A stretch of 64,000 nt of DNA, taken from Halosolutus gelatinilyticus (lineage in GTDB: Archaea > Halobacteriota > Halobacteria > Halobacteriales > Natrialbaceae). The position numbers were made by a program, and so were the translations under genes. The notes under the pieces are model-generated. The model saw only the letters and a list, made by a program, of their open reading frames with translations. It was not told the DNA's origin and made no database searches. Below are positions 1 through 12,812 of the stretch, one piece after another (position 1 is the stretch's first letter; the number at the start of each line of letters is the position of its first letter). Location of the stretch: positions 1,736,001 to 1,800,000 of the forward strand of contig NZ_CP095491.1 in NCBI RefSeq assembly GCF_023028105.1, read 5' to 3'.

Positions 1-433
1 CGTCGAGCACCGCGAATCCGGGACGATTCCCGCGTGGCTGGGCGTGACTGCCCGGGTTCAACAGCACCACGTCGCCGGTCTCGACGATCGTCGGCCGGTG
101 CGTGTGCCCGGAGACGACGACGTCGGCGCCTCGCGATCGGCCGAACATCGCCAGCCCCGCGTCCCCGCCGTCGCGTCGGTGCGTCACCGCGAACCGGATC
201 CCGCCGGCCTCGACGATCCGCTCGGTCGGCAGCCGATCGCGCACCGCGGCGCTGTCCGCGTTGCCGTGGACGGCGTAGAAGTGTTCGCACTCCTCCTGAA
301 AGGCGTCGAGCGCCGCCGGACTCGTGAAGTCCCCCGCGTGAATCACGGTGCCGGCCTCTCGTGCGGCGGTCAGGGCCTCGCCCGCGAGTTCGTGCCCGCT
401 ATCGCTGTGCGTATCCGAAAAGATCGCGATCAT
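1..433 (-). CDS. YfcE/MJ0936-type metallophosphoesterase, 3' end off the window
   Basis: Reading the minus strand from ATG at 433 gives MIAIFSDTHSDSGHE and then the ordered motifs of calcineurin-like phosphodiesterases: DTH near residue 7, GDF near residue 32, GNAD near residue 54 and GHTHRP near residue 109, followed by NPGS. These motifs hold the two metal ions of small YfcE/MJ0936-type phosphodiesterases, which are cytosolic and about 165 residues long; roughly 144 residues lie in the window and the C-terminus is cut by the left edge. The family is clear from the motifs. The physiological substrate is unknown. It is divergent from the CDF transporter gene on its right. Confidence 0.9.
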   Translation of the reverse strand, partial: MIAIFSDTHSDSGHELAGEALTAAREAGTVIHAGDFTSPAALDAFQEECEHFYAVHGNADSAAVRDRLPTERIVEAGGIRFAVTHRRDGGDAGLAMFGRSRGADVVVSGHTHRPTIVETGDVVLLNPGSHAQPRGNRPGFAVLD

Positions 434-599
434 GCCCTCTGATTCGGGCCCGATCGGGACGATCCTTTCGAACTTTCGTCGCCGGCTCGATCGGAAGACA
501 GTGTGCGGTCGATCGGCCGCGCCCGACGACCGGCGTCGAAGACGCGCCGCGAATTATCAGCCACCTATTCTTTTAAGACGGTGTGCGTAGGTGCCATCG

Positions 600-1550
600 A
601 TGGCCAGTAGCACCTCCGTCGTACTCGCCGCGCTGTTCGCGAACGGCGCGATCGCGGTCCTCAAGTTCGGCGGCTTTCTGCTCACCGGTAGTCCCGCGAT
701 GCTGTCGGAGACGTACCACTCGATCTCGGATACGGGCAATCAAATCTTCCTCCTCGTCGGCATCCGCTACGGGGCGCAGGAGGCGAACCGAACCCACCCG
801 TTCGGCCACGGCAAAGCGCAGTTCTTCTACAGCTTCCTCGTCAGCGTCATGCTGTTCGGGATCGCCGGCTGGGAGAGTGCGACGCACGGCTACGAGGCGC
901 TGACCCACGGCGGCGTCCACCGCACGAACGAACCGGTCTCGCTGCTCGGGACGACGTTCGACCCGGTGTACGTCAACTACGCCGTCCTGCTAGGTGCGAT
1001 CGCGTTCGAGGCGTACGCGTTCCACAAGGCCTACCAGGGGATCACCCGTCAGATGGCGGCCCACGGGTGGGAGAGTTTCCGCGAGGCGTTCCACAAGACG
1101 AGCGACGTGACGACGCTCACCGCGCTCACCGAGGACACGATCGCCCTCGCCGGCGCGGGGATCGCCCTCCTCGGGATCTATCTCAGTCGGGTTTACGAGA
1201 ACCCGATTTACGACGCCGGCGCCGCGCTCCTCATCGGGATCCTGCTCATGGGATTCGCCGTCGCGCTCGCGTGGGAGAACAAGCGGCTCCTCCTCGGGGA
1301 GAGCCTCCCCGAACCCGCCGAGGACGAACTGCGCGCCATCGTCGCCGGCTGGGACGGGGTCACCGACGTCGTCGACTTCCGGACCGTCTACTTCGGCGCC
1401 GAGGAACTGCTCGTCGCGGCGGACGTCGCGTTCGAACCCGACCTCGATACGGAGACGATCGACGAGCGCATCACCGCGATCGAACTGGCGCTGATGGACC
1501 ACGACGAGCAGGTCCAGAAGGTGTACATCGAACCCGAGACGATCGAGTGA
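600..1550 (+). CDS. Cation diffusion facilitator (CDF) family transporter
   Basis: A 316-residue membrane protein. The N-terminus runs into HSISDTGNQ, the CDF metal-site motif of the second membrane helix; HGKAQF (about residue 65) is the cytoplasmic signature; further hydrophobic helices follow, and the C-terminal 90 residues form the usual cytosolic ferredoxin-like domain ending in KVYIEPE. CDF proteins export divalent cations such as Zn, Mn or Fe in exchange for protons; the metal cannot be told from sequence. ATG 600 is preferred to the in-frame GTG at 591 because a TTTTAAGA box at 571-578 puts the transcription start at about 600, a leaderless mRNA. The last 180 bases recur at 4241-4420 with 9 differences. 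Confidence 0.92.
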   Translation: MASSTSVVLAALFANGAIAVLKFGGFLLTGSPAMLSETYHSISDTGNQIFLLVGIRYGAQEANRTHPFGHGKAQFFYSFLVSVMLFGIAGWESATHGYEALTHGGVHRTNEPVSLLGTTFDPVYVNYAVLLGAIAFEAYAFHKAYQGITRQMAAHGWESFREAFHKTSDVTTLTALTEDTIALAGAGIALLGIYLSRVYENPIYDAGAALLIGILLMGFAVALAWENKRLLLGESLPEPAEDELRAIVAGWDGVTDVVDFRTVYFGAEELLVAADVAFEPDLDTETIDERITAIELALMDHDEQVQKVYIEPETIE

Positions 1551-1680
1551 GGAGGTCAGGACACCGCTCGGTGACCTGTCGCACCGTCGACCTCTCCCCG
1601 TGACCGCTTCGACAGGTCCGTTGACCTGTGGTTTTACGATGAGGTAGAAATATATATGTCGAAAGCATTCATTAAATTCA

Positions 1681-2181
1681 ATGAATTCGATCAGTATGTT
1701 GCTCCGGTCCACCTTCCCGGTCGCCGGCATCCTGCTGTTCTGGGGGCTCGTCGGTCAGCTACTCCCTCTCTCAGCTGCGACCACGGGCGCGCGAATCGGC
1801 GGGATCCTCATGGCAACGTTGTACGTCTTTGCAATCGCCACCTCTAGACACGCTCACACTACAGAATCAGCCGAACACACCGGTATCCACGGTGTGGCAC
1901 GCGAAAACGTTAGGGTGGCCGTTGCAGCGAGCAGTTGGTTCCTCGTTGCGTTCGTATGTTGGTTTATTTCAGTACCCCTCGAACAGACCCCCAATAATTG
2001 GTGGTTCGGCAGACTCGTCACCGCCGTCGCGACGGAAGGGATCACAGTGGCGACGTACGCGTTCGTCGGGACCGGAGTTCTGACGGTTGTCCTCTACGTC
2101 GTTTCGGCCAGCTCGGCGTACGTCGGCAGCCACGGATCAAACGGCTATTATTCGAGCACCGCCTCAAAGTCTGACGACTAA
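1681..2181 (+). CDS. Hypothetical membrane protein (about 4 TM segments)
   Basis: 166 residues with four hydrophobic stretches at about residues 8-30, 38-54, 80-98 and 122-143 and a polar Ser-rich tail. I recognise no family. A box AATATATAT at 1648-1657 lies 28 bases before ATG 1681, fitting a leaderless transcript. Base composition is clearly lower in GC than the CDF gene before it. A palindrome (ACCTGTCG near 1573, CGACAGGT near 1610) lies between the CDF stop and this promoter and could be an operator. The gene belongs to the island bracketed by the duplicated CDF 3' end. Confidence 0.65.
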   Translation: MNSISMLLRSTFPVAGILLFWGLVGQLLPLSAATTGARIGGILMATLYVFAIATSRHAHTTESAEHTGIHGVARENVRVAVAASSWFLVAFVCWFISVPLEQTPNNWWFGRLVTAVATEGITVATYAFVGTGVLTVVLYVVSASSAYVGSHGSNGYYSSTASKSDD

Positions 2182-2367
2182 TCATAAAGCACACACTTAT
2201 CATCGCCAATTCGTAAGTACGTTTTAAGGATACAGTCCGTCAAGCCATAATCCAAGCGGACTTAACTCGCGTCCAACTGGATTGGGCGCGCAGTTTCGTA
2301 CTGCGAACGAACGAGACGTCGATAAAAATACACAATAATTAGGTCGGGGTTCGGTCAGTAATTGTCG

Positions 2368-3144
2368 TTACTTGTCCGAGAACCCGTTTTGCATCTGGTA
2401 CTCCGACGGACTCGCACTCCGGTTCCAGACGCCACCGTGAAGACCGATGTCCCAATCCAGATCGATGTTCGAACCTGACATCGAGATATCGGTCAGTTCG
2501 GCACCCCAAGTGTGCCAGAAATTGACGGTCAGTTCGCGCTGGGACGGAGTTGAGTTCGCTGACGGATCTACGGCAACATCGAAGGACGATTCGAAACGTC
2601 CAATAGTGTCGTACGCGGCGTCATTTGAGTTGTATTCTACGACTAAGCCAGTGTCGCTAGTGTCGTCTTCCCGGTCAGAGATTGGAAAGACATAGTCACC
2701 ATATGTGGGGCCGTAATACGAGTTACGGGTGTAGTCGCTTGAATCAAACGTAATCGCAGCGTAGTCAAGCGGGTCTGTCGCCCAGTCGTCGTATCCATCG
2801 TTCAACGACCACTTGAAGTTCACCCAGTTTGCATCGCTCCCCTCGGAGTAGGTGACGAACAGATGCGACTCGTTTTTGTCTAGCTTCGTCGTTCCAACAT
2901 CACTGCCACCAATCTTCTTGTTAGTGTACTTGACGACGAATCCAGCGGCTCTGAGTCGATGATGCCAGGTAGAAAGGTCCCAGTTGTTTTCGGTACGCAT
3001 CTGAGCGAGGCGTTCATATTCCTCGCCATTTGGGGCGGGTTTTTGTGCTGATGCAATTGGTAGTCCGGCGAATGCCGCCCCGCCGACCGCTGCGAGGATT
3101 GACCGCCGATTCGTCTCTTTCAAGCTTGCGTTGTCGTGTTTCAT
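2368..3144 (-). CDS. Tat-exported protein of unknown function, paralogue 1
   Basis: 258 residues starting with a Tat-type signal: NRRSILAAVGGAAFAGLPIA, probably cleaved after ASA near residue 33. The mature part is acidic and rich in Asp, Ser, Tyr and Trp, as expected for a folded extracellular halophilic protein. It shares with the upstream gene (3172-4014) the spaced pattern WD..W...L...G....K.T, a central WSL(N/D)DG(Y/W) followed by DY..I.F, and IGRF.S.FD, so the two are tandem paralogues. No known domain is recognised and there is no obvious catalytic motif. The start codon is only 27 bases after the paralogue's stop, so the pair is probably cotranscribed. Confidence 0.75.
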   Translation of the reverse strand: MKHDNASLKETNRRSILAAVGGAAFAGLPIASAQKPAPNGEEYERLAQMRTENNWDLSTWHHRLRAAGFVVKYTNKKIGGSDVGTTKLDKNESHLFVTYSEGSDANWVNFKWSLNDGYDDWATDPLDYAAITFDSSDYTRNSYYGPTYGDYVFPISDREDDTSDTGLVVEYNSNDAAYDTIGRFESSFDVAVDPSANSTPSQRELTVNFWHTWGAELTDISMSGSNIDLDWDIGLHGGVWNRSASPSEYQMQNGFSDK

Positions 3145-3171
3145 TGTTCGATATACTGTGAAACGCGTGAG

Positions 3172-4014
3172 TCACTCTGGGTCGTCGTCGACGTAGGTTT
3201 CTCCATTGTCCATCTCAGCTTCTGAGGTAAACGTCTCGGCACGCCAATGGCCGTCCTCGGAGCCGAAGTTAAGGCCACCATCCCCGTTAGAATCAACGAC
3301 GAAGCCAGTTATTGTCTCCTCCGTCCACCGGCAGTGGTAGTCCATGTAGATCTGGCGTGTCTGAGGCGAGCCACCAGTGGCGTAGAGTTTCGTATCGAAC
3401 CAGGAACCAAACCGGCCGACCGAATTCATCGCGTGCCCGTCGGCATTGTAGCTGACGACCCGATAGTTGTGGCCGAGTGAGTCGATACCTTCGGCGCTGT
3501 CGGTATAATCCCCGTAGTCCTCATCGTATCCGTCGGTGAAGTTGTAGTAGCTGCCTTCAAAGCTAATGGAGACATAGTCCTCCGGAGGTTCGGCGTACGA
3601 AGACCAGCCGTCATCGAGGCTCCACTCTACCATGAGATGGTCCGTGTCCTGACCCCGCGTGTAGGTCATGTACAGTCTCGCAGTGCTTTCATAGAGGCGC
3701 TGTGAACTGGGGCCGCCATGCGCTGTTGGTTTCTTCACGGTCACCTCGTCGCCCGTGTGTTTGAAGTCCAAGCCATGGCCGGCGAGCCAACTCCTCCATT
3801 CATGGACATCCCAGCCCCTGTTTTTCCGGAGCCGCAGCGATTGTTGATAAATTCGATCCGTTGCTTTCCCCGCTCTGAAGTCGCTGCTATCGGGACCTCC
3901 TGCAGTGGCGGAAGCCGAACCTAGGCTTGCAAGCCCGGTAATCCCTGCGGAGCCTACGACCGTTCTCAGGAAATCTCTTCGTGTATTACTTCTGATATTA
4001 TCTTGCTGATTCAC
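3172..4014 (-). CDS. Tat-exported protein of unknown function, paralogue 2
   Basis: About 280 residues. GTG 4014 is taken as start (MNQQDNIRSNTRRDFL); an in-frame TTG at 4026 is the alternative. The signal NTRRDFLRTVVGSAGITG is a canonical Tat twin-arginine sequence, with likely cleavage after ASA. An AT-rich box TTTATATAAA at 4045-4054 would start transcription a few bases before GTG 4014. The mature domain matches its downstream neighbour in several conserved blocks (WD..W, YMTYT.G.D, WSLDDGW, VGRF.SWFD), so both form an exported two-gene family. Function unknown. It lies in the lower-GC island. Confidence 0.75.
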   Translation of the reverse strand: MNQQDNIRSNTRRDFLRTVVGSAGITGLASLGSASATAGGPDSSDFRAGKATDRIYQQSLRLRKNRGWDVHEWRSWLAGHGLDFKHTGDEVTVKKPTAHGGPSSQRLYESTARLYMTYTRGQDTDHLMVEWSLDDGWSSYAEPPEDYVSISFEGSYYNFTDGYDEDYGDYTDSAEGIDSLGHNYRVVSYNADGHAMNSVGRFGSWFDTKLYATGGSPQTRQIYMDYHCRWTEETITGFVVDSNGDGGLNFGSEDGHWRAETFTSEAEMDNGETYVDDDPE

Positions 4015-4214
4015 TATGGAACCCAACTATTAATTAAAATACCATTTATATAAATGTATGTATTCTAAGTATATCTATCTATGATCATATTTACATTTAC
4101 AAAAATAAAATATATTCTAATATTTATTAATAAAGAGAACTATTGGTCGGATACTTCACCCAATCGTTTACTACGAGAAAATATGTACTCATCTGAACAT
4201 CAGTCGAAATACTC

Positions 4215-4424
4215 ATTCACGCCATCGACTCGAACGACGTCACCGACCTGGTCGACTTCCGGACCGTCTACTTCGGCGCCGAGGAACTGCTCGTCACCGC
4301 GGACGTCGCGTTCGAACCCGACCTCGATACGGAGACGATCGACGAGCGCATCACCGCGATCGAACTGGCGCTGATGGACCACGACGCGCAGGTCCGGAAA
4401 GTGTACATCGAGCCCGAAACGTAA
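4215..4424 (+). pseudogene. Orphan 3' end of a CDF transporter gene (partial duplication)
   Basis: In the frame ending with TAA 4422-4424 this reads as the last 60-70 residues of a CDF C-terminal domain (VDFRTVYFGAEELL near its start, KVYIEPET at the end) with no start codon and no membrane part. From 4241 to 4420 it aligns without gaps to 1361-1540 of the intact CDF gene at an offset of exactly 2880 bases, with 9 mismatches in 180, some synonymous. Its first codons and last residues differ from the intact copy. It looks like the original or an imported 3' end left behind by a recombination event that placed the island 1551-4214 between two copies. Confidence 0.85.
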
Positions 4425-4466
4425 CGGGCGTCTCGATCGCTCCACCGGGCCGTTCGACGACCGGCG

Positions 4467-4889
4467 CTATTCGATCGCGCCGGGACGTTCGACGTCCTTG
4501 TCGACGTACCCCGCCACGATCGTCGGCCCCGGCGGCCGATCGTTCAGCACCGCCGTCACGGTCGTCTCCTCCAGGTCGACCGTCGACTCGAGCGGTTTCC
4601 AGCCCGAATCGGTGTCGACGGCGACGGCGACGTCCGTCGGACTCGCCCCCGGCGGCAGTTTCGACGGATCGTAGCCGAGCGTGATCCGGACCGCTTCGAT
4701 CGCCTTCAGTCCGTCCAGCCCGCGGATGTCGACGGGGTTCGCGAGCGCGTCGATCGGCCCCTCGATCGCGCTCTTCGACAGGCCGAACTCGTCGGGAACG
4801 ACGCCGGCGACGACGGCGATGCTGGCGCCTCCCTGTGGCAATGTGTCCTCCGCGACCGTATCGGAATCGTACCCTGGAATGGCCACCAT
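4467..4889 (-). CDS. Conserved-looking hypothetical protein
   Basis: 140 acidic residues, MVAIPGYDSDTVAED at the start. The C-terminal half (about 65-130) reads ITLGYDPSKLPPG, then VAVAVDTDSGWKPLESTV and a TVTAVLNDRPPGPTIVAGY block, a beta-rich pattern like the C-terminal domains of haloarchaeal surface or secreted proteins. Here there is no signal peptide, no membrane anchor and no PGF motif, so it may be the surviving piece of a larger secreted protein or a short free-standing domain. No function can be assigned. It follows the orphan CDF fragment and is convergent with it. Confidence 0.6.
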   Translation of the reverse strand: MVAIPGYDSDTVAEDTLPQGGASIAVVAGVVPDEFGLSKSAIEGPIDALANPVDIRGLDGLKAIEAVRITLGYDPSKLPPGASPTDVAVAVDTDSGWKPLESTVDLEETTVTAVLNDRPPGPTIVAGYVDKDVERPGAIE

Positions 4890-5585
4890 ATTCGGGGCGA
4901 AGTGCCGGTTCGTTATGTCCCTGTACCCCGCGTACGCCGGCTGTGAGAACTGTGGTCAATTGGCATTTCGTCTCTGTTCGACTACCACGCTGAATAATTC
5001 GTAGCGGTTGGAAACACCACGAAAACCCCTGCTGCGATCGAGTCGGGGGACTCGTTGCGCGCCTCGCCTCACTTCGTTCGACTCGGTGCTAACGCCGTCC
5101 GCCTTCCCCGATCGCACTGGCCCCGTTCAGCCCCACCCGTGTCGGCTGATCGGCAGGCCACCGCGGGTGGGACTGAACGGGGCTGGCAGCATCCGGGAAG
5201 ACGGGCGCCGTCTTTGCTCGCTCCGCGCGCAAAGGACTGCGAGAGCCGTAGACTCTCGCTTGGCCAGCACCGAACGGAGTGAGGTCGTTCGAAAGGCGCT
5301 GCGCGCCTTTCGTGACTGAGCGAATCGGAGATTCGCGATGTCCGCGAAACCGAAGGTTTCGCTTGATGACGAGAGACCACAGGTCTCTCGAACCACGCAC
5401 AGCAAGTCCCTCGACCGGATGCTGCCAGGGGCTTTCGTTGTGATCTCATCCGGATCGCAGATGTCTTCGTCTGATCCGAACACGATCGACTCCATCTGGT
5501 CGATTGGAGTCGACGATCGAGTCCGCATCAAGAAGCGCTGAATCGAGACGAATGCTTTTATCGGAGCAGGAACCAATCACGTATC
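4890..5585. other. Long intergenic region with hairpin-rich repeat
   Basis: No credible gene is seen: the open frames here are low-complexity and overlap dense inverted repeats. It holds the hairpin cluster 5041-5410, a further stem at about 5489-5514 (CGACTCCA pairing with TGGAGTCG), and the promoter of the downstream helicase, TTTTATC at 5556-5562, 27 bases before GTG 5586. Confidence 0.7.
5041..5410. repeat. Cluster of short inverted repeats (haloarchaeal REP-like element)
   Basis: A 20-base arm at 5120-5139 (GCCCCGTTCAGCCCCACCCG) pairs with 5164-5183 at 19 of 20 positions across a 24-base loop. To its right come several near-perfect hairpins, most with a 3-base loop: 5240-5258 (6-base stem CGAGAG, 7-base loop), 5290-5312 (10-base stem CGAAAGGCGC), 5320-5336 (7-base stem GCGAATC), 5344-5362 (8-base stem GCGAAACC) and 5370-5390 (9-base stem CGAGAGACC). 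The tandem arrangement of unrelated stems that share loop size is not a CRISPR and has no coding sense. Similar single hairpins recur elsewhere in the window. Confidence 0.8.
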
Positions 5586-7757
5586 GTGTCCGAGACAGCC
5601 GGGTACATGCGCTTTTTCCCGTACGACCAGCCGTACGAGAATCAGCGCGAGGCGATGGACCGCATCTACAACTCCCTCTACCGGGGACAGGACGTCCTCT
5701 TCGAGGGGGCCTGCGGGACCGGCAAGACTCTCTCGTCGCTCGTTCCCGCCCTCGAAGTCGCCCGCGAACAGGGGAAGACGGTCGTCATCACGACCAACGT
5801 CCACCAGCAGATGCGCCAGTTCGTCGCCGAAGCCCGCGCGATCACCCGCGAAGAGCCGATTCGGGCGGTCGTGTTCAAGGGAAAATCGTCGATGTGTCAC
5901 ATCGACGTCGGCTACGAGGAGTGTCAGGCGCTGCGGGACAACACCCGGGCGCTCGTCGACGCCGAACGCGATAAGCAGCAACTCGAACGCCGCCAGCGGG
6001 AACTGCTCGCGGAGAGCCAGGAGGGCGACGGCGGCGCGGCCGACGCCCGATCGGCGGTGATGGACGAACTCGAGTCGATCGAGGACCGACTCGACGACCT
6101 GGCGGACCAGAACGTCTGCGAGTACTACCGCAACAACCTGACGGCGGAGACGGACGACTTCTTCGGCTGGCTCTTCGATGACGTCCGCACGCCCGAGGAG
6201 ATCTACGACTACGCCGAACAACAGCAGTTCTGCGGGTACGAACTCTTAAAAGAGGGGATCGAGGGCGTCGACCTGGTCGTCTGTAACTACCATCACCTGC
6301 TCGATTCGATGATCCGCGAGCAGTTCTTCCGGTGGCTCGGCCGCGATCCCGAGGACGTGATCGCCGTCTTCGACGAGGCGCACAACGTCGAAGACGCGGC
6401 CCGCGAACACGCCACCCGCACGTGCTCGGAGCGCACGTTCGACTCCGCGCTGGACGAACTCGCCGAGACGGACGATCCTCGGGCCGAAGACGCGGTGAAC
6501 GTCCTCTCGGCGTTTCACCGCGCGCTGGTCGAGACCTACGAGGACTCGTTCGGCTTCGGCGGGCGCGAACGGATCGGCGAGAACTGGGAGGACGTCCCGA
6601 TCGCCAACGAGGACCGGCGGGACGACCTCACGCTCGCCTTCCTCCAGCAGTACTCGGGGCAAGGGATCGAAGGTGACCTCGAGGCGGCGACGAAACTCGG
6701 CCAGGAACTCGACGAGCAGTACGAGGAGGCCTACCGCGAGGGCGAGACGGCAACGCGGACGGAGTGCCAGACGCTGCAGGCTGCGGCGTTCGTCAGCGCG
6801 TGGCTAAACGAGGGCGCGAAAGAGGGACTCTACCCGGTCGTCTCCGTCACGCGCGACGCCGGGACCGACGAGGTCTACGGCCGCGCGGAACTGTACACCT
6901 GCCTCCCACGGCAGGTGACCGGCCGCCTGTTCGACGAGGTGTACGCGACCGTCCTGATGAGCGCCACGCTCCAGCCGTTCGACGTCACCGAGGACGTGCT
7001 GGGCCTCGAGAACCCTGTGACGATGGCGTACGGCCTCCAGTTCCCCGACTCGAACCGGCGCACGTACGCCGTCGAGACGCCGCCGCTGTTCTCGTCCGAT
7101 CGCGACGATCCCGAGGTCCAGGAACGGGTCGCCGAGACGATTCACGACGCCGTCCGCATGACGCCCGGGAACACGCTCGCGTTCTTTCCGAACTACGGTG
7201 AGGCGAGTCGGTACGCCGAGCGGCTCGAATCCCGCTGCGAGAACCCGGTTTACCTCGACGAACCCGGCGTCGCTGTCGAGGACCTCCGCCGGGAGTTCGT
7301 TGCAGACGACGACGCCGTGCTCTGTACGTCGCTGTGGGGGACGCTCGCGGAGGGCGTGAGCTTCGACGGCGCCGACGCTCGGACCGTCCTCGTGGTCGGC
7401 GTCCCCTATCCGCACCTCGACGATCGCGCCGAAGCGGTTCAGGAGGCCTACGACGCGGCCTTCGAGGGCACCGAGACGGGGTGGCGCTACGCCGTCGAGA
7501 TCCCGACGGTTCGGAAGACTCGTCAGGCGCTCGGGCGGGTGATCCGATCGCCCGAGGACGTCGGCGTTCGCGCGCTGCTCGATCGCCGCTACTCACGGCG
7601 GGAGAAGTCGGATCTCGGCAAGTACAGCGTCAACGGCACCTTCCCCCACGAGGACCGCGAGGAGCTGCTCGACATCCAGCCCGAGAAGCTGAAGTTCGCG
7701 ATGCTGAATTTCTACGCCGATCACGGCGCGTACGACGGCGATCCGCCGGCTCCGTGA
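5586..7757 (+). CDS. XPD/Rad3-DinG family ATP-dependent DNA helicase
   Basis: 723 residues, superfamily 2 helicase of the XPD/Rad3 group: Walker A GACGTGKT near residue 43, DEAHN (motif II) near residue 264, motif LMSATL near residue 458, GVSF and the terminal ALGRVIRSPED motif VI. Four cysteines at about residues 103, 113, 178 and 216 sit where the family binds an iron-sulfur cluster. Such enzymes unwind DNA 5' to 3' in repair. GTG 5586 is favoured because a TTTTATC box ends 24 bases before it, making the mRNA leaderless; ATG 5607 is an alternative that keeps all motifs. No operon partner. Confidence 0.92.
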   Translation: MSETAGYMRFFPYDQPYENQREAMDRIYNSLYRGQDVLFEGACGTGKTLSSLVPALEVAREQGKTVVITTNVHQQMRQFVAEARAITREEPIRAVVFKGKSSMCHIDVGYEECQALRDNTRALVDAERDKQQLERRQRELLAESQEGDGGAADARSAVMDELESIEDRLDDLADQNVCEYYRNNLTAETDDFFGWLFDDVRTPEEIYDYAEQQQFCGYELLKEGIEGVDLVVCNYHHLLDSMIREQFFRWLGRDPEDVIAVFDEAHNVEDAAREHATRTCSERTFDSALDELAETDDPRAEDAVNVLSAFHRALVETYEDSFGFGGRERIGENWEDVPIANEDRRDDLTLAFLQQYSGQGIEGDLEAATKLGQELDEQYEEAYREGETATRTECQTLQAAAFVSAWLNEGAKEGLYPVVSVTRDAGTDEVYGRAELYTCLPRQVTGRLFDEVYATVLMSATLQPFDVTEDVLGLENPVTMAYGLQFPDSNRRTYAVETPPLFSSDRDDPEVQERVAETIHDAVRMTPGNTLAFFPNYGEASRYAERLESRCENPVYLDEPGVAVEDLRREFVADDDAVLCTSLWGTLAEGVSFDGADARTVLVVGVPYPHLDDRAEAVQEAYDAAFEGTETGWRYAVEIPTVRKTRQALGRVIRSPEDVGVRALLDRRYSRREKSDLGKYSVNGTFPHEDREELLDIQPEKLKFAMLNFYADHGAYDGDPPAP

Positions 7758-7877
7758 CCGGTCCCGTCGCCGATTTTGCCCCTCGATCAGGGTCGCGAAA
7801 AGGCCGATCGGTCACGAGGCGCACCCTCGTCGTCACGGTACTGCGACCGGACGGTCGCGGACGGAATTGGCCGGCGA

Positions 7878-8426
7878 TCAGGCGGGAAGGCCCACGCGGC
7901 TGACCGGCAGCCGGTAGGTGCCGTCCCAGAACTCGAGTTCGGAGACCGTCCACCGGATCGGCTCGATCTCCCGATCGGCGAGCCGTCTCGCGACCTCGCT
8001 GTCGCCGCCGCGAGCCAGCGTGACGTGGGGGACGTAGTCGCTGCCTTCGAGACCGTCGACCGCGTCGAACGTCTCGGCGAGATTCGCGTGAATCCGCTCG
8101 AGGCCCGGACTCTCGACGGCGAGGTAGACGACGGGGGCCGATCCCAGCGGCGGATCGTCGAAGTAGTCGATGCCCGTGATCTCGGCTTCGACCGCGGGAG
8201 ATCCCTCGAGCGCCCGGTGGGCGCGGTGCTGGAGCCGGGAGACGTGATCGGCGTCGCCGAGGCGCTTGAGCAAACACGAGTGGTCCTCGCGAACGCGATC
8301 GAACCCGAGCAGTTCGGGGTAGAGGGCGTCCGCGAGTTCGCGGACGCGCCCCGGTACGGGGACGTTGACGCTGTACACTTCGGTCTCAGTTCGGTCGGTC
8401 GACGTATGAGTCTGGCGTTCGCTCAC
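7878..8426 (-). CDS. 2'-5' RNA ligase / cyclic phosphodiesterase superfamily protein
   Basis: 182 residues when started at GTG 8426 (MSERQTHTS); the frame stays open to 8501 but that extension is Arg-rich and unlike the family. The N-terminal half has EDHSCLLKRL and the C-terminal half HVTLAR, the two His-containing motifs of the 2H phosphoesterase fold (LigT-like); the first is HxCx rather than the usual HxTx. Family members act on 2',3'-cyclic phosphates or 2'-5' linkages in RNA, often tRNA. The true substrate cannot be read from sequence. It is convergent with the XPD helicase and divergent from the next gene. Confidence 0.8.
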   Translation of the reverse strand: MSERQTHTSTDRTETEVYSVNVPVPGRVRELADALYPELLGFDRVREDHSCLLKRLGDADHVSRLQHRAHRALEGSPAVEAEITGIDYFDDPPLGSAPVVYLAVESPGLERIHANLAETFDAVDGLEGSDYVPHVTLARGGDSEVARRLADREIEPIRWTVSELEFWDGTYRLPVSRVGLPA

Positions 8427-8552
8427 GGTCAGCCCGGCAGCCAGCGGGCGCCGCGCGAATCGTTCACCCGCTCGCGTTGACGTGACAGTTGAAAAACACA
8501 CCGCTACCGCGGTCGGAAAGACCTATTTAGGCGGCTCTGTCATCGTTAACTA

Positions 8553-9668
8553 ATGGACGTGAGGGGGCTCCGGGCCCTGGTTTGCCTGCTCGTGGTGGTT
8601 GGCTCGATCGCGTTCGTTCCGTTCGGTGTGGCTGCCGATGCCGGCGGGAGTGCTACCGGGATCGACGCCGCCGCGGTTCAGGAAGAGCGGAACGAGAGCG
8701 CGTGGTTAGAGGAGGCTGACGAGATCCATGTCAACGTCGTCATCCACGAGAACGGATCGGCGACGTTCACCGTCGACCATCGATATGCGATCAACGGTGA
8801 CGACGGCAACGAGTCCAACGTGGAATGGGAGACGCTTCGGGAGGACGTCGAGTCGAATTCCGACGCGTACACCGATGCGCACGCGGACGACTGGCAAACC
8901 GAACTCGTCGAGGCCGAAAATCGGACGGAGCGCGAGATGGAACTCATGAACGTCTCCGTCAGAACGGACAAGAGCACCGCACCGCGGACGTTCGGCCACG
9001 TCACGTTCACCTTCACGTGGAACTCGTTTGCCCACGTCGAACTGAACCGGATCGAGGCGGGCGATTCGCTCTCCGGATTCACGCTCTCCGACGGGACCAC
9101 GCTGCAGTTTCGCTGGCCCGAGGGCTACGAGACCTACGACGGCGTCGACCCCTCGCCGGACAGTCGGGACGATCGATCGGTCTTCTGGAACGGCGAGGAG
9201 ACCGAGTTCACCAACGAGCAACCCCGGCTCATCCTGATCGAGAACGCGAGCGACGGGGAGGCTGCCGACACCGACGGGGGTCCGCCCATGCCCTGGCTCG
9301 CGGTCGCGGCCGCCCTCCTGTTGCTCGCGGCGGTCGGCGCCGCGGGCTGGTGGATCGGGGGCGAACGGGGGCGAACCGGCGGGCACGCCGGCGTCGACTC
9401 CGAACCGATCGACGACCCGAGCGTCGCCGCCGGCGGTTCGAACGGTCCGCCGCCGGAACTGCTGAGCAACGAAGAGCGCGTCCTGCGGTTGCTCAACCGG
9501 CGCGGCGGCCGGATCAAGCAACAGGAAGTCGTCTCGGAGTTGGACTGGACCGAAGCCAAGACGAGCCAGGTGGTCAGCAGGCTCCGCGAGGACGACCAGA
9601 TCGACGTCTTCCGGATCGGTCGCGAGAACGTGCTCTCCTTGCCCGACGACGAGGAAGACGAGGACTGA
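8553..9668 (+). CDS. Membrane-anchored protein with C-terminal winged-helix domain
   Basis: 371 residues: signal peptide/anchor at 1-27, an acidic extracellular beta-rich domain at about 40-235, a single strong membrane segment near 250-270 (WLAVAAALLLLAAVGAAGWW), then a cytosolic winged helix at about 305-365 (EERVLRLLNRRGGRIKQQEV, SQVVSRLREDDQI). This one-pass architecture, an outside sensor domain fused to an inside DNA-binding domain, is a common haloarchaeal regulator type of unknown ligand. TATTTAG at 8523-8529 lies 27 bases before ATG 8553, giving a leaderless mRNA. I infer a membrane-tethered transcription regulator; target genes are unknown. Confidence 0.85.
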   Translation: MDVRGLRALVCLLVVVGSIAFVPFGVAADAGGSATGIDAAAVQEERNESAWLEEADEIHVNVVIHENGSATFTVDHRYAINGDDGNESNVEWETLREDVESNSDAYTDAHADDWQTELVEAENRTEREMELMNVSVRTDKSTAPRTFGHVTFTFTWNSFAHVELNRIEAGDSLSGFTLSDGTTLQFRWPEGYETYDGVDPSPDSRDDRSVFWNGEETEFTNEQPRLILIENASDGEAADTDGGPPMPWLAVAAALLLLAAVGAAGWWIGGERGRTGGHAGVDSEPIDDPSVAAGGSNGPPPELLSNEERVLRLLNRRGGRIKQQEVVSELDWTEAKTSQVVSRLREDDQIDVFRIGRENVLSLPDDEEDED

Positions 9669-10005
9669 TCGGACGATCCCTCTTCGCGCGCCGTCCCGTC
9701 GACGGCGGCTGTAACATTTGCCGTCCCGATAGCGTTTAATAGCTCGGGCTGTGTTACCTGTACCAATGAGTCTCTCCGTCGGACCCGCCGTTGCCGGTCT
9801 CGGTACCGACGGAGCTGTTTCTCCGCGACCGCGACGACCGCGACCGGGCCTCTGAGCCCGTACTATACTACCCCCCCACGTCTCCGGTTCGTTCCCAACG
9901 TTCCAGCAATTGCCCAATTTTCCGGTTAGCGTACGCTCTAAACTTAATTTACTCGAATAAAACCAATGAATTTAAGTCCATCCTGCCGTTTCACTCGAGT
10001 ACGAC
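9669..10005. other. Intergenic region upstream of argG
   Basis: Contains the small arginine-rich ORF at 9766-9855 with its own TATA-like box, a run of eight cytosines near 9871-9878 after a TACTATACTA stretch, and an AT-rich argG promoter whose likely TATA element is TTTAAG at 9971-9976, about 30 bases before ATG 10006. The length and the embedded ORF suggest argG control acts here. Confidence 0.5.
9766..9855 (+). CDS. Possible 29-residue leader peptide before argG (Arg-rich tail)
   Basis: ATG 9766 opens a 29-codon frame MSLSVGPAVAGLG...; four CGA arginine codons occur within the run PRPRRPRP just before the stop at 9853-9855. TTTAAT at 9735-9740 is 28 bases before the ATG, the normal spacing for a haloarchaeal leaderless gene. 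It ends 150 bases before argG. A cluster of arginine codons in a short ORF ahead of an arginine biosynthesis locus recalls attenuator leaders, but transcription-coupled attenuation is not established for haloarchaea and Arg-Pro repeats also arise by chance in GC-rich DNA. Confidence 0.3.
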   Translation: MSLSVGPAVAGLGTDGAVSPRPRRPRPGL

Positions 10006-11253
10006 ATGACACGCGTTGCACTCGCGTTCTCGGGCGGGCTGGACACGACCGTCTGTGTTCCGCTGCTCGAGGAGGAATACGGATACGACGACGTCATCGG
10101 CGTCACGGTCGACGTCGGACAGCCGGCCTCCGAGTTCGAAGAGGCCGAAGAAACCGCCGAGGCACTCGGCCTCGAACACTACGTCGTCGACGCGCGAGCG
10201 GAATTCGCGCAGCTCTGTCTCGAGAGCGTCCGCGCGAACGCGACCTACCAGGGCTATCCCCTCGGGACGGCGCTCGCCCGCCCCGTGATCGCGACGGCCA
10301 TCCTCGAGGTGGCCGAGGAAGAGGGCTGTACCGGTATCGCCCACGGCTGTACCGGCAAGGGGAACGACCAGTTGCGGTTCGAGGCGATTTGGCGCGATTC
10401 GGATCTCGAAGTGATCGCGCCCGTGCGCGAACTCGGGCTCACGCGCGAGTGGGAACAGGAGTACGCCGCCGAACGGGACCTCCCCGTCGAGGGCGGCAGC
10501 GGCGGCGACTGGTCGATCGACACCAACCTCTGGAGCCGCTCGGTCGAGGGCGACGAACTCGAGGACCCGAGCTACGTCCCGCCGGAGGACATCTACGCGT
10601 GGACACAGGCGCCCACCGGGGAGACCCAGGAGATCGAGATCGAATTCGAGGAGGGCTACCCCGTCGCCGTCGACGGCGTCGAGTACGAGCCCGTCGAACT
10701 CGTCGAGCACTTGAACGGCGTGGCCGGGGCGTACGGCGTCGGACGCACCGACTCGATGGAAGACCGCATGCTCGGACTGAAAGTTCGCGAGAACTACGAG
10801 CACCCGGCCGCGACGACGCTGCTCAACGCCCACGAGGGGCTCGAGGGGCTCGTCCTTACACAGGAAGAACGCGAGTTCAAGCAGCTGATCGATCAGAAGT
10901 GGTCGAAGAAGGGCTACGAGGGGCTGATAGACGCGCCGCTCGTGGACGCGCTCGAAGGCTTTATCGAGGAAACCCAGCAGCGCGTCACCGGCACGGTGAC
11001 GATTCGCTTCGAGGGCGGACAGGCCCGCGTCGTCGCTCGCGACAGCGAGTACGCCGCCTACTCGGCCGAGCACGCCTCCTTCGACACCGAGACGGTCGGC
11101 AAGATCACGCAGGAGGACGCCACCGGGGTCGCGAAGTACCACGGCTTCCAGCGCCGCCTCGCGAACGAAGCGATCGCCGCGAACGCGGCCGCCGAGGAGG
11201 AAGTCGAACTCGCTCCCGACGGCGGGAGCGAAACCGACGCCGAGGACGAGTAA
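10006..11253 (+). CDS. argG: Argininosuccinate synthase
   Basis: 415 residues. The N-terminus MTRVALAFSGGLDTTV carries the PP-loop SGGLDT that binds ATP; GCTGKGNDQLRFE near 109-121 and the later TNLWSRSVEGDELE and GRTDSMEDRMLGLK blocks are the citrulline/aspartate binding signatures. The enzyme joins citrulline and aspartate using ATP, the seventh step of arginine synthesis. Length matches the family (about 400). It is two bases from argH on the same strand and clearly in one operon. An acidic 15-residue tail after the core is typical halophilic decoration. Confidence 0.97.
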   Translation: MTRVALAFSGGLDTTVCVPLLEEEYGYDDVIGVTVDVGQPASEFEEAEETAEALGLEHYVVDARAEFAQLCLESVRANATYQGYPLGTALARPVIATAILEVAEEEGCTGIAHGCTGKGNDQLRFEAIWRDSDLEVIAPVRELGLTREWEQEYAAERDLPVEGGSGGDWSIDTNLWSRSVEGDELEDPSYVPPEDIYAWTQAPTGETQEIEIEFEEGYPVAVDGVEYEPVELVEHLNGVAGAYGVGRTDSMEDRMLGLKVRENYEHPAATTLLNAHEGLEGLVLTQEEREFKQLIDQKWSKKGYEGLIDAPLVDALEGFIEETQQRVTGTVTIRFEGGQARVVARDSEYAAYSAEHASFDTETVGKITQEDATGVAKYHGFQRRLANEAIAANAAAEEEVELAPDGGSETDAEDE

Positions 11254-11255
11254 CC

Positions 11256-12812
11256 ATGACCGAGGAGAGCGCTCACGACGGCGAATCCGCTCGCGATCGG
11301 ATCGTCCGAACGGACGGCGGCAGCGATCAGGGCGTCGTCCGACGGGACCGCTTCAGCGGCGGCCCCGCCCGGAGCTTCCTCTCCTCGCTCGTGGCCGACG
11401 AACGAATCTTCGAGGCCGATCTCGAGGTCGATCGCGCCCACGTGATCATGCTCGCCGAGCAGGGAATCGTCGAGGACGACGTTGCGGGCCGGATCCTCAC
11501 CGCGCTGGATGCGATCGAGGTCGACGGCCACGCCTCGCTGCCCGACGGCGAGGACGTCCACGAGGCGATCGAGACGGCCGTCATCGAGCGGATCGGCGAG
11601 GCGGGCGGGAAGATGCACACCGCGCGCTCGCGCAACGACGAGGTCGCGGCCTGCATCCGGTATCGCGTGCGCGAGGACGTTCTCGACGCGATCGAGACGA
11701 CGATCGCGCTGCGCGAGGCGCTGGCAGCGGTCGCCGACGCACACCGGGAGACGATCATGCCCGGCTACACGCACCTCCAGCCCGCCCAGCCGACTACCGT
11801 CGCGCACTGGGCGCTCTCCTACGAAGGCGCGGTTCGTCGCGACACCGAACGCCTGTTCGAGGCGTACGGCCGGATCAACGAATCACCCCTCGGCGGGGCC
11901 GCGTTCGCCGGGACGACGTTCGAGATCGATCGCGAGCGTACGGCCGAACTGCTCGGCTTCGACGGCGGTCCCGCGAGCGGCACGAGGGGGACCTCGGCGG
12001 AGCAGCGCTCCGCCGTTGTGATCGAGAACTCGATGGACGCCTCCTCGAGCCGGGACTTCCTGCTCGAGACGGTGCAGGCGCTGTCGACCCACGCGACGAC
12101 GCTGTCGGGAATCGCGGAGGACCTCATCGTCTTCGCGAACCGCGCCTTCGTTTCCCTCTCGGACGACTACTCGTCGACGTCGTCGATCATGCCCCAGAAG
12201 AAAAACCCCGACACGTTGGAGCTCGTCCGCGCGGTCGCGGGCGACGCAGCGGGCGGGGTCCAAGGGCTGACGACGACGCTCAAGGGTCTCCCCCGCGCGT
12301 ACAACCGCGATCTCCAGCGGGCGACGACCCACGCCTGGGAGACCGTCGACGCGGTGATCGAGGCGAGCGAGGTCGCGGCCGGCGCGATCGCAACGGCCGA
12401 CTGGAACGAGGACGCCCTCGCGGCGGAGGCCGGCGCGGGCTTCTCGACGGCGACCGGCGTCGCCGACCTGCTGGCGGCGAACGGGTTGCCGTTCCGGACG
12501 GCGCACGAAGTGGTCGCGATCGCGGCGGAGAACGGCGCGGACTACGATGCGATCGACGCCGCTGCGGCGGAGGTCCTCGGCGAACCGATCGACTCGTTCG
12601 TCGATCCCGAGGCCGTGGCGGCAGCCCTCGATCCCGCAGAGAGCGTGGCGACTCGCGACTCGCGGGGCGGTCCCGCCCCCGAGGTCGTCGCGGACCAACT
12701 CGATGACGCGCGCGACGCGCTCGCGAGCCACGAGGCGACGCTCGACGAAACGAGCGAGGCGATCGAGGCCGCACACGCGGCGCTTCGCGAGGAGGTGAAC
12801 GAGTATGTTTGA
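11256..12812 (+). CDS. argH: Argininosuccinate lyase
   Basis: 518 residues from ATG 11256. KMHTARSRNDEVA near residue 120, TRYTHLQPAQPT-like GYTHLQPAQPT near 168 and the fumarase-superfamily signature SSIMPQKKNP near 309 identify the enzyme, which splits argininosuccinate to arginine and fumarate. Between LLGFDG and the conserved ENSMDASSSRDF there are about 16 extra residues (GPASGTRGTSAEQRSA) not expected from relatives I remember; the DNA for this stretch contains a perfect 9-base hairpin at 11995-12015. The open frame extends upstream through argG but that part is an out-of-frame shadow. Confidence 0.96.
   Translation: MTEESAHDGESARDRIVRTDGGSDQGVVRRDRFSGGPARSFLSSLVADERIFEADLEVDRAHVIMLAEQGIVEDDVAGRILTALDAIEVDGHASLPDGEDVHEAIETAVIERIGEAGGKMHTARSRNDEVAACIRYRVREDVLDAIETTIALREALAAVADAHRETIMPGYTHLQPAQPTTVAHWALSYEGAVRRDTERLFEAYGRINESPLGGAAFAGTTFEIDRERTAELLGFDGGPASGTRGTSAEQRSAVVIENSMDASSSRDFLLETVQALSTHATTLSGIAEDLIVFANRAFVSLSDDYSSTSSIMPQKKNPDTLELVRAVAGDAAGGVQGLTTTLKGLPRAYNRDLQRATTHAWETVDAVIEASEVAAGAIATADWNEDALAAEAGAGFSTATGVADLLAANGLPFRTAHEVVAIAAENGADYDAIDAAAAEVLGEPIDSFVDPEAVAAALDPAESVATRDSRGGPAPEVVADQLDDARDALASHEATLDETSEAIEAAHAALREEVNEYV
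11995..12015. repeat. In-frame mini-palindrome inside argH
   Basis: Nine-base perfect stem CGGCGGAGC / GCTCCGCCG around loop AGC. It lies exactly in the extra segment of ArgH between GFDG and ENSMDA. Stem and 3-base loop resemble the hairpins at 5290-5390, 12889-12907 and 57824-57844. Confidence 0.75.

Follow-up and report, generated by a model that had tools for sequence, protein, structure and literature searches.

A low-GC island beside a duplicated transporter gene end in Halosolutus gelatinilyticus suggests an integrase-free route of gene gain in haloarchaea

Among the closest described systems is the displacement of rhs C-terminal ends, or tips (Jackson et al. 2009, PMC2935791), which resembles the process proposed here: incoming DNA recombines within a conserved part of a gene, and the former end of that gene is moved downstream, where it persists as a silent fragment behind the intact copy. 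For the T6SS immunity arrays of Vibrio, homology-facilitated illegitimate recombination has been proposed (PMC5361080), a process in which one side is anchored by homology and the other is joined without it, and after which the displaced old gene ends stay downstream. Haloarchaeal foreign DNA at precise chromosomal positions, as in our case, is known from the deletion-coupled insertions of Haloquadratum walsbyi, whose mechanism the authors left open (PMC3119063). Many integrase-free insertions in haloarchaeal genomes lack an explained origin.

Here we analyzed a stretch of 64,000 nucleotides from Halosolutus gelatinilyticus (contig NZ_CP095491.1, positions 1,736,001 to 1,800,000; the window), in which an intact gene for a cation diffusion facilitator (CDF) transporter has downstream of it a start-less fragment of itself that probably bears the old end. 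The features of the locus are as follows.

600..1550, + strand: intact CDF transporter gene, 316 aa (PF01545, 6e-32; TIGR01297, 9.5e-42)
1344..1541, + strand: repeat copy 1, the 3′ end of the intact CDF gene
1551..4223, no strand: inserted low-GC island, 52% GC, ~2.7 kb (from its composition and its absence at the site in all relatives)
1573..1618, + strand: 9-bp inverted repeat GACCTGTCG/CGACAGGTC 3′ of the CDF stop (read from the sequence)
1681..2181, + strand: probable membrane-protein ORF, 166 aa, cargo (homologues in 3 other Natrialbaceae genomes)
2368..3144, - strand: exported protein 1 (Tat-like RR signal), 258 aa, cargo (paralogue of exported protein 2)
3172..4026, - strand: exported protein 2 (RRDFL Tat-like signal), 284 aa, cargo (sporadic family)
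4027..4222, no strand: AT-rich non-coding stretch adjoining the remnant junction
4224..4424, + strand: repeat copy 2, a CDF 3′-end remnant of ~65 codons without start and with its own TAA stop
4467..4889, - strand: conserved 140-aa protein, directly after CDF in most close relatives
5586..7757, + strand: DEAD_2 helicase, the next conserved neighbor (PF06733/PF13307; synteny)

The initial annotation had described positions 1361-1540 as repeated at 4241-4420 with 9 mismatches at an offset of 2880 bases, which we reproduced exactly. The direct repeat as a whole (1346-1541 and 4226-4421, at the same offset) is identical at 182 of 196 positions, with 14 mismatches, and a blastn E value of 2e-81 excludes chance. 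Homology sets in at about 1344 and 4224 and stops at the end of the CDF gene, where copy 1 closes with ...ETIE-TGA and copy 2 with ...ET-TAA; the second copy is a gene end only, as had been stated. The inverted repeat, a possible terminator, lies in the final GC-rich DNA ahead of the low-GC island, and positions 1547-1690 had no match in relatives except for one chance-like 29-bp hit. Other close repeats in the region resemble IS copies, tandem tRNAs or paralogous genes.

Both congeners (G002 and G001) carry the CDF gene, then at once the 140-residue gene and then the helicase, with the island absent, and the window with its flanks joined aligned to them end to end over 1406 of 1410 bases at 79%. 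Most of the ~20 named Natrialbaceae loci are ordered CDF, small convergent gene, helicase, and those of Natrialba and Saliphagus keep this order minus only the 140-residue gene. The named loci of Natrinema, Haloterrigena, Natrialba and Natronococcus have a single CDF tail and no island. A CDF tail was present in 80 of 125 Natrialbaceae genomes, and two adjacent tails were found solely in this one; another genome (G006) has two CDF genes, on separate contigs. Relatives with the same arrangement as the window, which the initial annotation had named as evidence against an insertion, were looked for among Natrialbaceae and not found, and the uninterrupted gene that it had named as support for one is there. 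On these alignments, the island is demonstrably a lineage-specific insertion, later than the split from the two congeners. Recipient DNA at the insertion point was not lost, as the CDF end and the following gene were both kept. Homology-facilitated illegitimate recombination would leave an insertion in one lineage and an empty site in relatives, as observed here.

Two loci from other lineages (L054:6948-8563 and L056:6975-9425) have low-GC DNA between CDF and helicase with no CDF tail, and these stretches carry ORFs with Tat signals or lipoprotein-like features. The CDF-helicase interval may take insertions repeatedly. Between the 140-residue gene and the helicase of the window, the intergenic, inverted-repeat-rich stretch 5003-5450 has ~50 partial matches elsewhere in the genome and belongs to a dispersed repeat family.

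The content of the island also agrees with its first description as lower-GC DNA with one membrane gene, two paralogous exported-protein genes and no integrase. GC is 0.52 between the copies versus 0.66 for the CDF gene, in a neighborhood of 66% GC, and identity between the two exported proteins is 27-30%. None of the three cargo ORFs gave a significant Pfam, NCBIfam or PHROGs family, so the cargo has no recognizable integrase. No tRNA was found in positions 1-12000 of the window, and the locus yielded neither an integrase nor a conserved attachment core, by either of which an integrase-mediated genomic island would be recognized. The exported proteins fall into a family of Tat-signal orphans whose occurrence among haloarchaea is patchy; 38 of the 293 genomes of the order have members, which are often low in GC and sometimes present in several copies. 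The gene cluster around one homologue resembles a provirus on visual inspection. Searches on cargo function returned no significant PADLOC family and no credible solved relative, and the AlphaFold model, with a pLDDT of 30, is of no use for function. The cargo had no viral, phage or DNA-level plasmid match and a single plasmid-protein match, at 27%.

In a tree of CDF tails the two copies are sisters (92/88), with a branch length of 0.065 for copy 2 versus 0.036 for copy 1. They differ at 16 of 198 columns, and 10 of the 16 differences fall at codon positions 1-2, as expected with one copy unselected; functional orthologue pairs differ mostly at codon position 3. Copy 2 retains some states shared with relatives and lost from copy 1 (such as the T in LVTADV), and copy 1 retains others. 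Divergence is concentrated at the ends of the repeat (8/26 and 5/36, or 13/62 together) and is low in the middle (3/136). The middle region was chosen by eye, so that its P is optimistic (5e-5, or 0.002-0.02 in a longest-run test with the site rates of relatives). This conserved middle could stem from a crossover where the match was best, from conversion at a later time, or in part from chance.

Similar scars, in which an intact gene and a remnant of it flank cargo, occur at other haloarchaeal loci. Halorhabdus amylolytica (L044:6001-8619) has an intact CDF gene, an opposite-strand 455-residue ATPase_2/DUF234 gene that matches the PADLOC candidate PDC-S27 (4e-44), a 28-codon CDF tail and the helicase. 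Halorhabdus salina (L040) has an empty site, with 43 bp from CDF to helicase and a tail ending in ...ETRA, an ending shared by the decaying tail of H. amylolytica (...KKVSVEPETRA); Halorhabdus relatives closer than 85% were searched for and none was found. The H. amylolytica remnant agrees with the empty-site species at 4 of 5 informative third positions, and its other departures are mostly at codon positions 1 and 2. By these signs, it is evidently the displaced native end, now decaying. The insertion is independent of that in the window, and its cargo is unrelated.

Two more scars lie in the H. gelatinilyticus genome. In one (L154:2692-6433; 1638692-1642433), HemB is followed by a membrane protein of CPBP type and then by a decayed tail of HemB itself (193 bp, 78%), with third positions of 3:5, which do not favor the remnant as native. 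The other (L160:8863-11284; 1828863-1831284) has a PhoU/TrkA gene, a predicted lipoprotein ORF and a tail that is an 87%, frame-shifted copy of the last 115 bp of the gene, and for this remnant 5 of the 6 informative third positions match the congeners. In a genome of another family (G191, L164:6792-9366), a FemAB-like gene is followed by DNA of 44% GC, encoding a homologue of the exported proteins and a DUF5518 protein, and by an 87% copy of the last 103 bp of the gene; relatives are too diverged there for an empty-site comparison. The same genome has mirror scars (C1:1101647-1104444 and 1365182-1368196), with a gene-start remnant, a cargo ORF and the intact gene, the copies being ~90% identical. 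Since such scars exist at gene starts, we dropped the idea that the route is specific to 3′ ends. No attachment site common to the parallel scars was seen.

To gauge frequency, contiguous stretches of haloarchaeal sequence amounting to 1.96 Mb, plus other loci amounting to 1.55 Mb, were surveyed under strict criteria. Six layouts of intact gene, cargo and tail and two of head, cargo and intact gene gave 8 of the expected type, versus 1 of the two opposite (unexpected) layouts after an antisense duplicate was dropped. Two 400-kb stretches (G002 and G290) held no scars, nor did six 50-kb stretches of E. coli (300 kb) used as a control. The rate of ~2 scars per Mb is indicative only, because the sample is small, non-random and partly picked via earlier hits; G191, for one, entered it because it held the first parallel case. 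Mobility driven by the cargo itself was also considered and dropped, since scars at 2 of ~44 exported-protein loci (the window and L164) are not clearly above chance given this rate.

Our preferred explanation, to which we assign a probability of roughly 55%, is that a horizontally acquired island entered via CDF homology by homology-facilitated illegitimate recombination. The incoming fragment would have carried a related CDF 3′ end and then the cargo. Its CDF end would have recombined with the resident gene, so that the intact gene now ends in the incoming 3′ part, and the end of the cargo would have been joined without homology inside the resident tail, which would thereby have been pushed 2.7 kb downstream. 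No site-specific recombinase would be required. In Haloferax volcanii, ends are joined by microhomology and RadA-dependent homologous recombination is also needed for repair (PMC2700283), so both ingredients are present in haloarchaea. The initial annotation had likewise proposed an insertion or exchange through the CDF 3′ end, with which the empty sites in congeners and the two tails in 1 of 80 tail-bearing genomes accord. Its further proposal, of an incoming segment that restored the gene and pushed aside its former end, gains from the third positions in H. amylolytica and PhoU/TrkA, but those of the window copies (2:3) give no readable direction.

The same layout would result from a Campbell-type single crossover of a circle of ~2.88 kb carrying the cargo and a CDF 3′-end fragment, which could excise and re-insert through the same repeat. 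The window's own repeat does not discriminate between the two routes: copy 2 borders abruptly on AT-rich DNA at its left end, yet both repeat ends are diverged. A donor, in the form of a genome in which this cargo follows CDF, was not found. Under the simplest model, with homology at a single end, no more than one end should have diverged, so a circle that crossed over in the middle, or subsequent gene conversion, is also possible, and the divergent-identical-divergent pattern fits a crossover in the longest shared stretch. A circular intermediate is also the published model for rhs (PMC2935791). However, no plasmid or viral contig with this cargo was found, and the remnants in the best-resolved parallel cases, Halorhabdus and PhoU/TrkA, look native along their length and not chimeric, for which reason we favor illegitimate joining and regard the circle as possible but rather unlikely.

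A history in which the CDF end was duplicated locally in tandem, and low-GC genes entered separately between the duplicates, would suit two copies that are sisters and mostly near identical. It requires two events, though, no relative has the duplication alone, and homology ends at the gene end, where diverged orthologues cease aligning, all of which makes it improbable. The elements e14 and P21 in E. coli icd are of the site-specific, gene-end type, and a carried gene end that restores the target gene is a hallmark of elements inserting in protein genes. An element of this type, with the CDF 3′ end as its attachment site and its integrase lost or acting in trans, would account for a carried end restoring CDF and for the independent strike on CDF in Halorhabdus. 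Given that there is no integrase, that the Halorhabdus cargo is unrelated, and that scars lie at unrelated genes and gene starts with no common site seen, we hold such an element to be very improbable.

Returning to illegitimate joining through a shared gene, the similar scars at unrelated genes suggest an integrase-free route of gene gain in haloarchaea that is little described in archaea. A broader version, in which displacement without a recombinase recurs as a cycle that brings cargo to conserved housekeeping genes of haloarchaea, with cassettes attached to gene ends recombining into the orthologue and perhaps exiting as circles via the duplicated end, is speculative and in our view doubtful. 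Gene-end remnants offer a readable scar of this homology-through-shared-gene route and a means of counting it, and they call for caution from annotators, who should not take such tails for real genes. The displacement route, if confirmed, would be open to test in Haloferax volcanii, where repair in mre11 rad50 mutants moves from end-joining to homologous recombination (PMC2700283).

Compared with the systems described above, the target at this locus is a housekeeping CDF transporter and not a polymorphic toxin family such as rhs, the cargo has no toxin tip, and the gene, in an archaeal host, would have exchanged its end for an orthologous one. Naturally transformable bacteria are where homology-facilitated illegitimate recombination is known, whereas here we propose it for an archaeon. 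Insertions in Haloquadratum walsbyi lose recipient DNA, whereas here the recipient gene end is kept in duplicate, and the deletion-coupled insertions may represent the reciprocal outcome.
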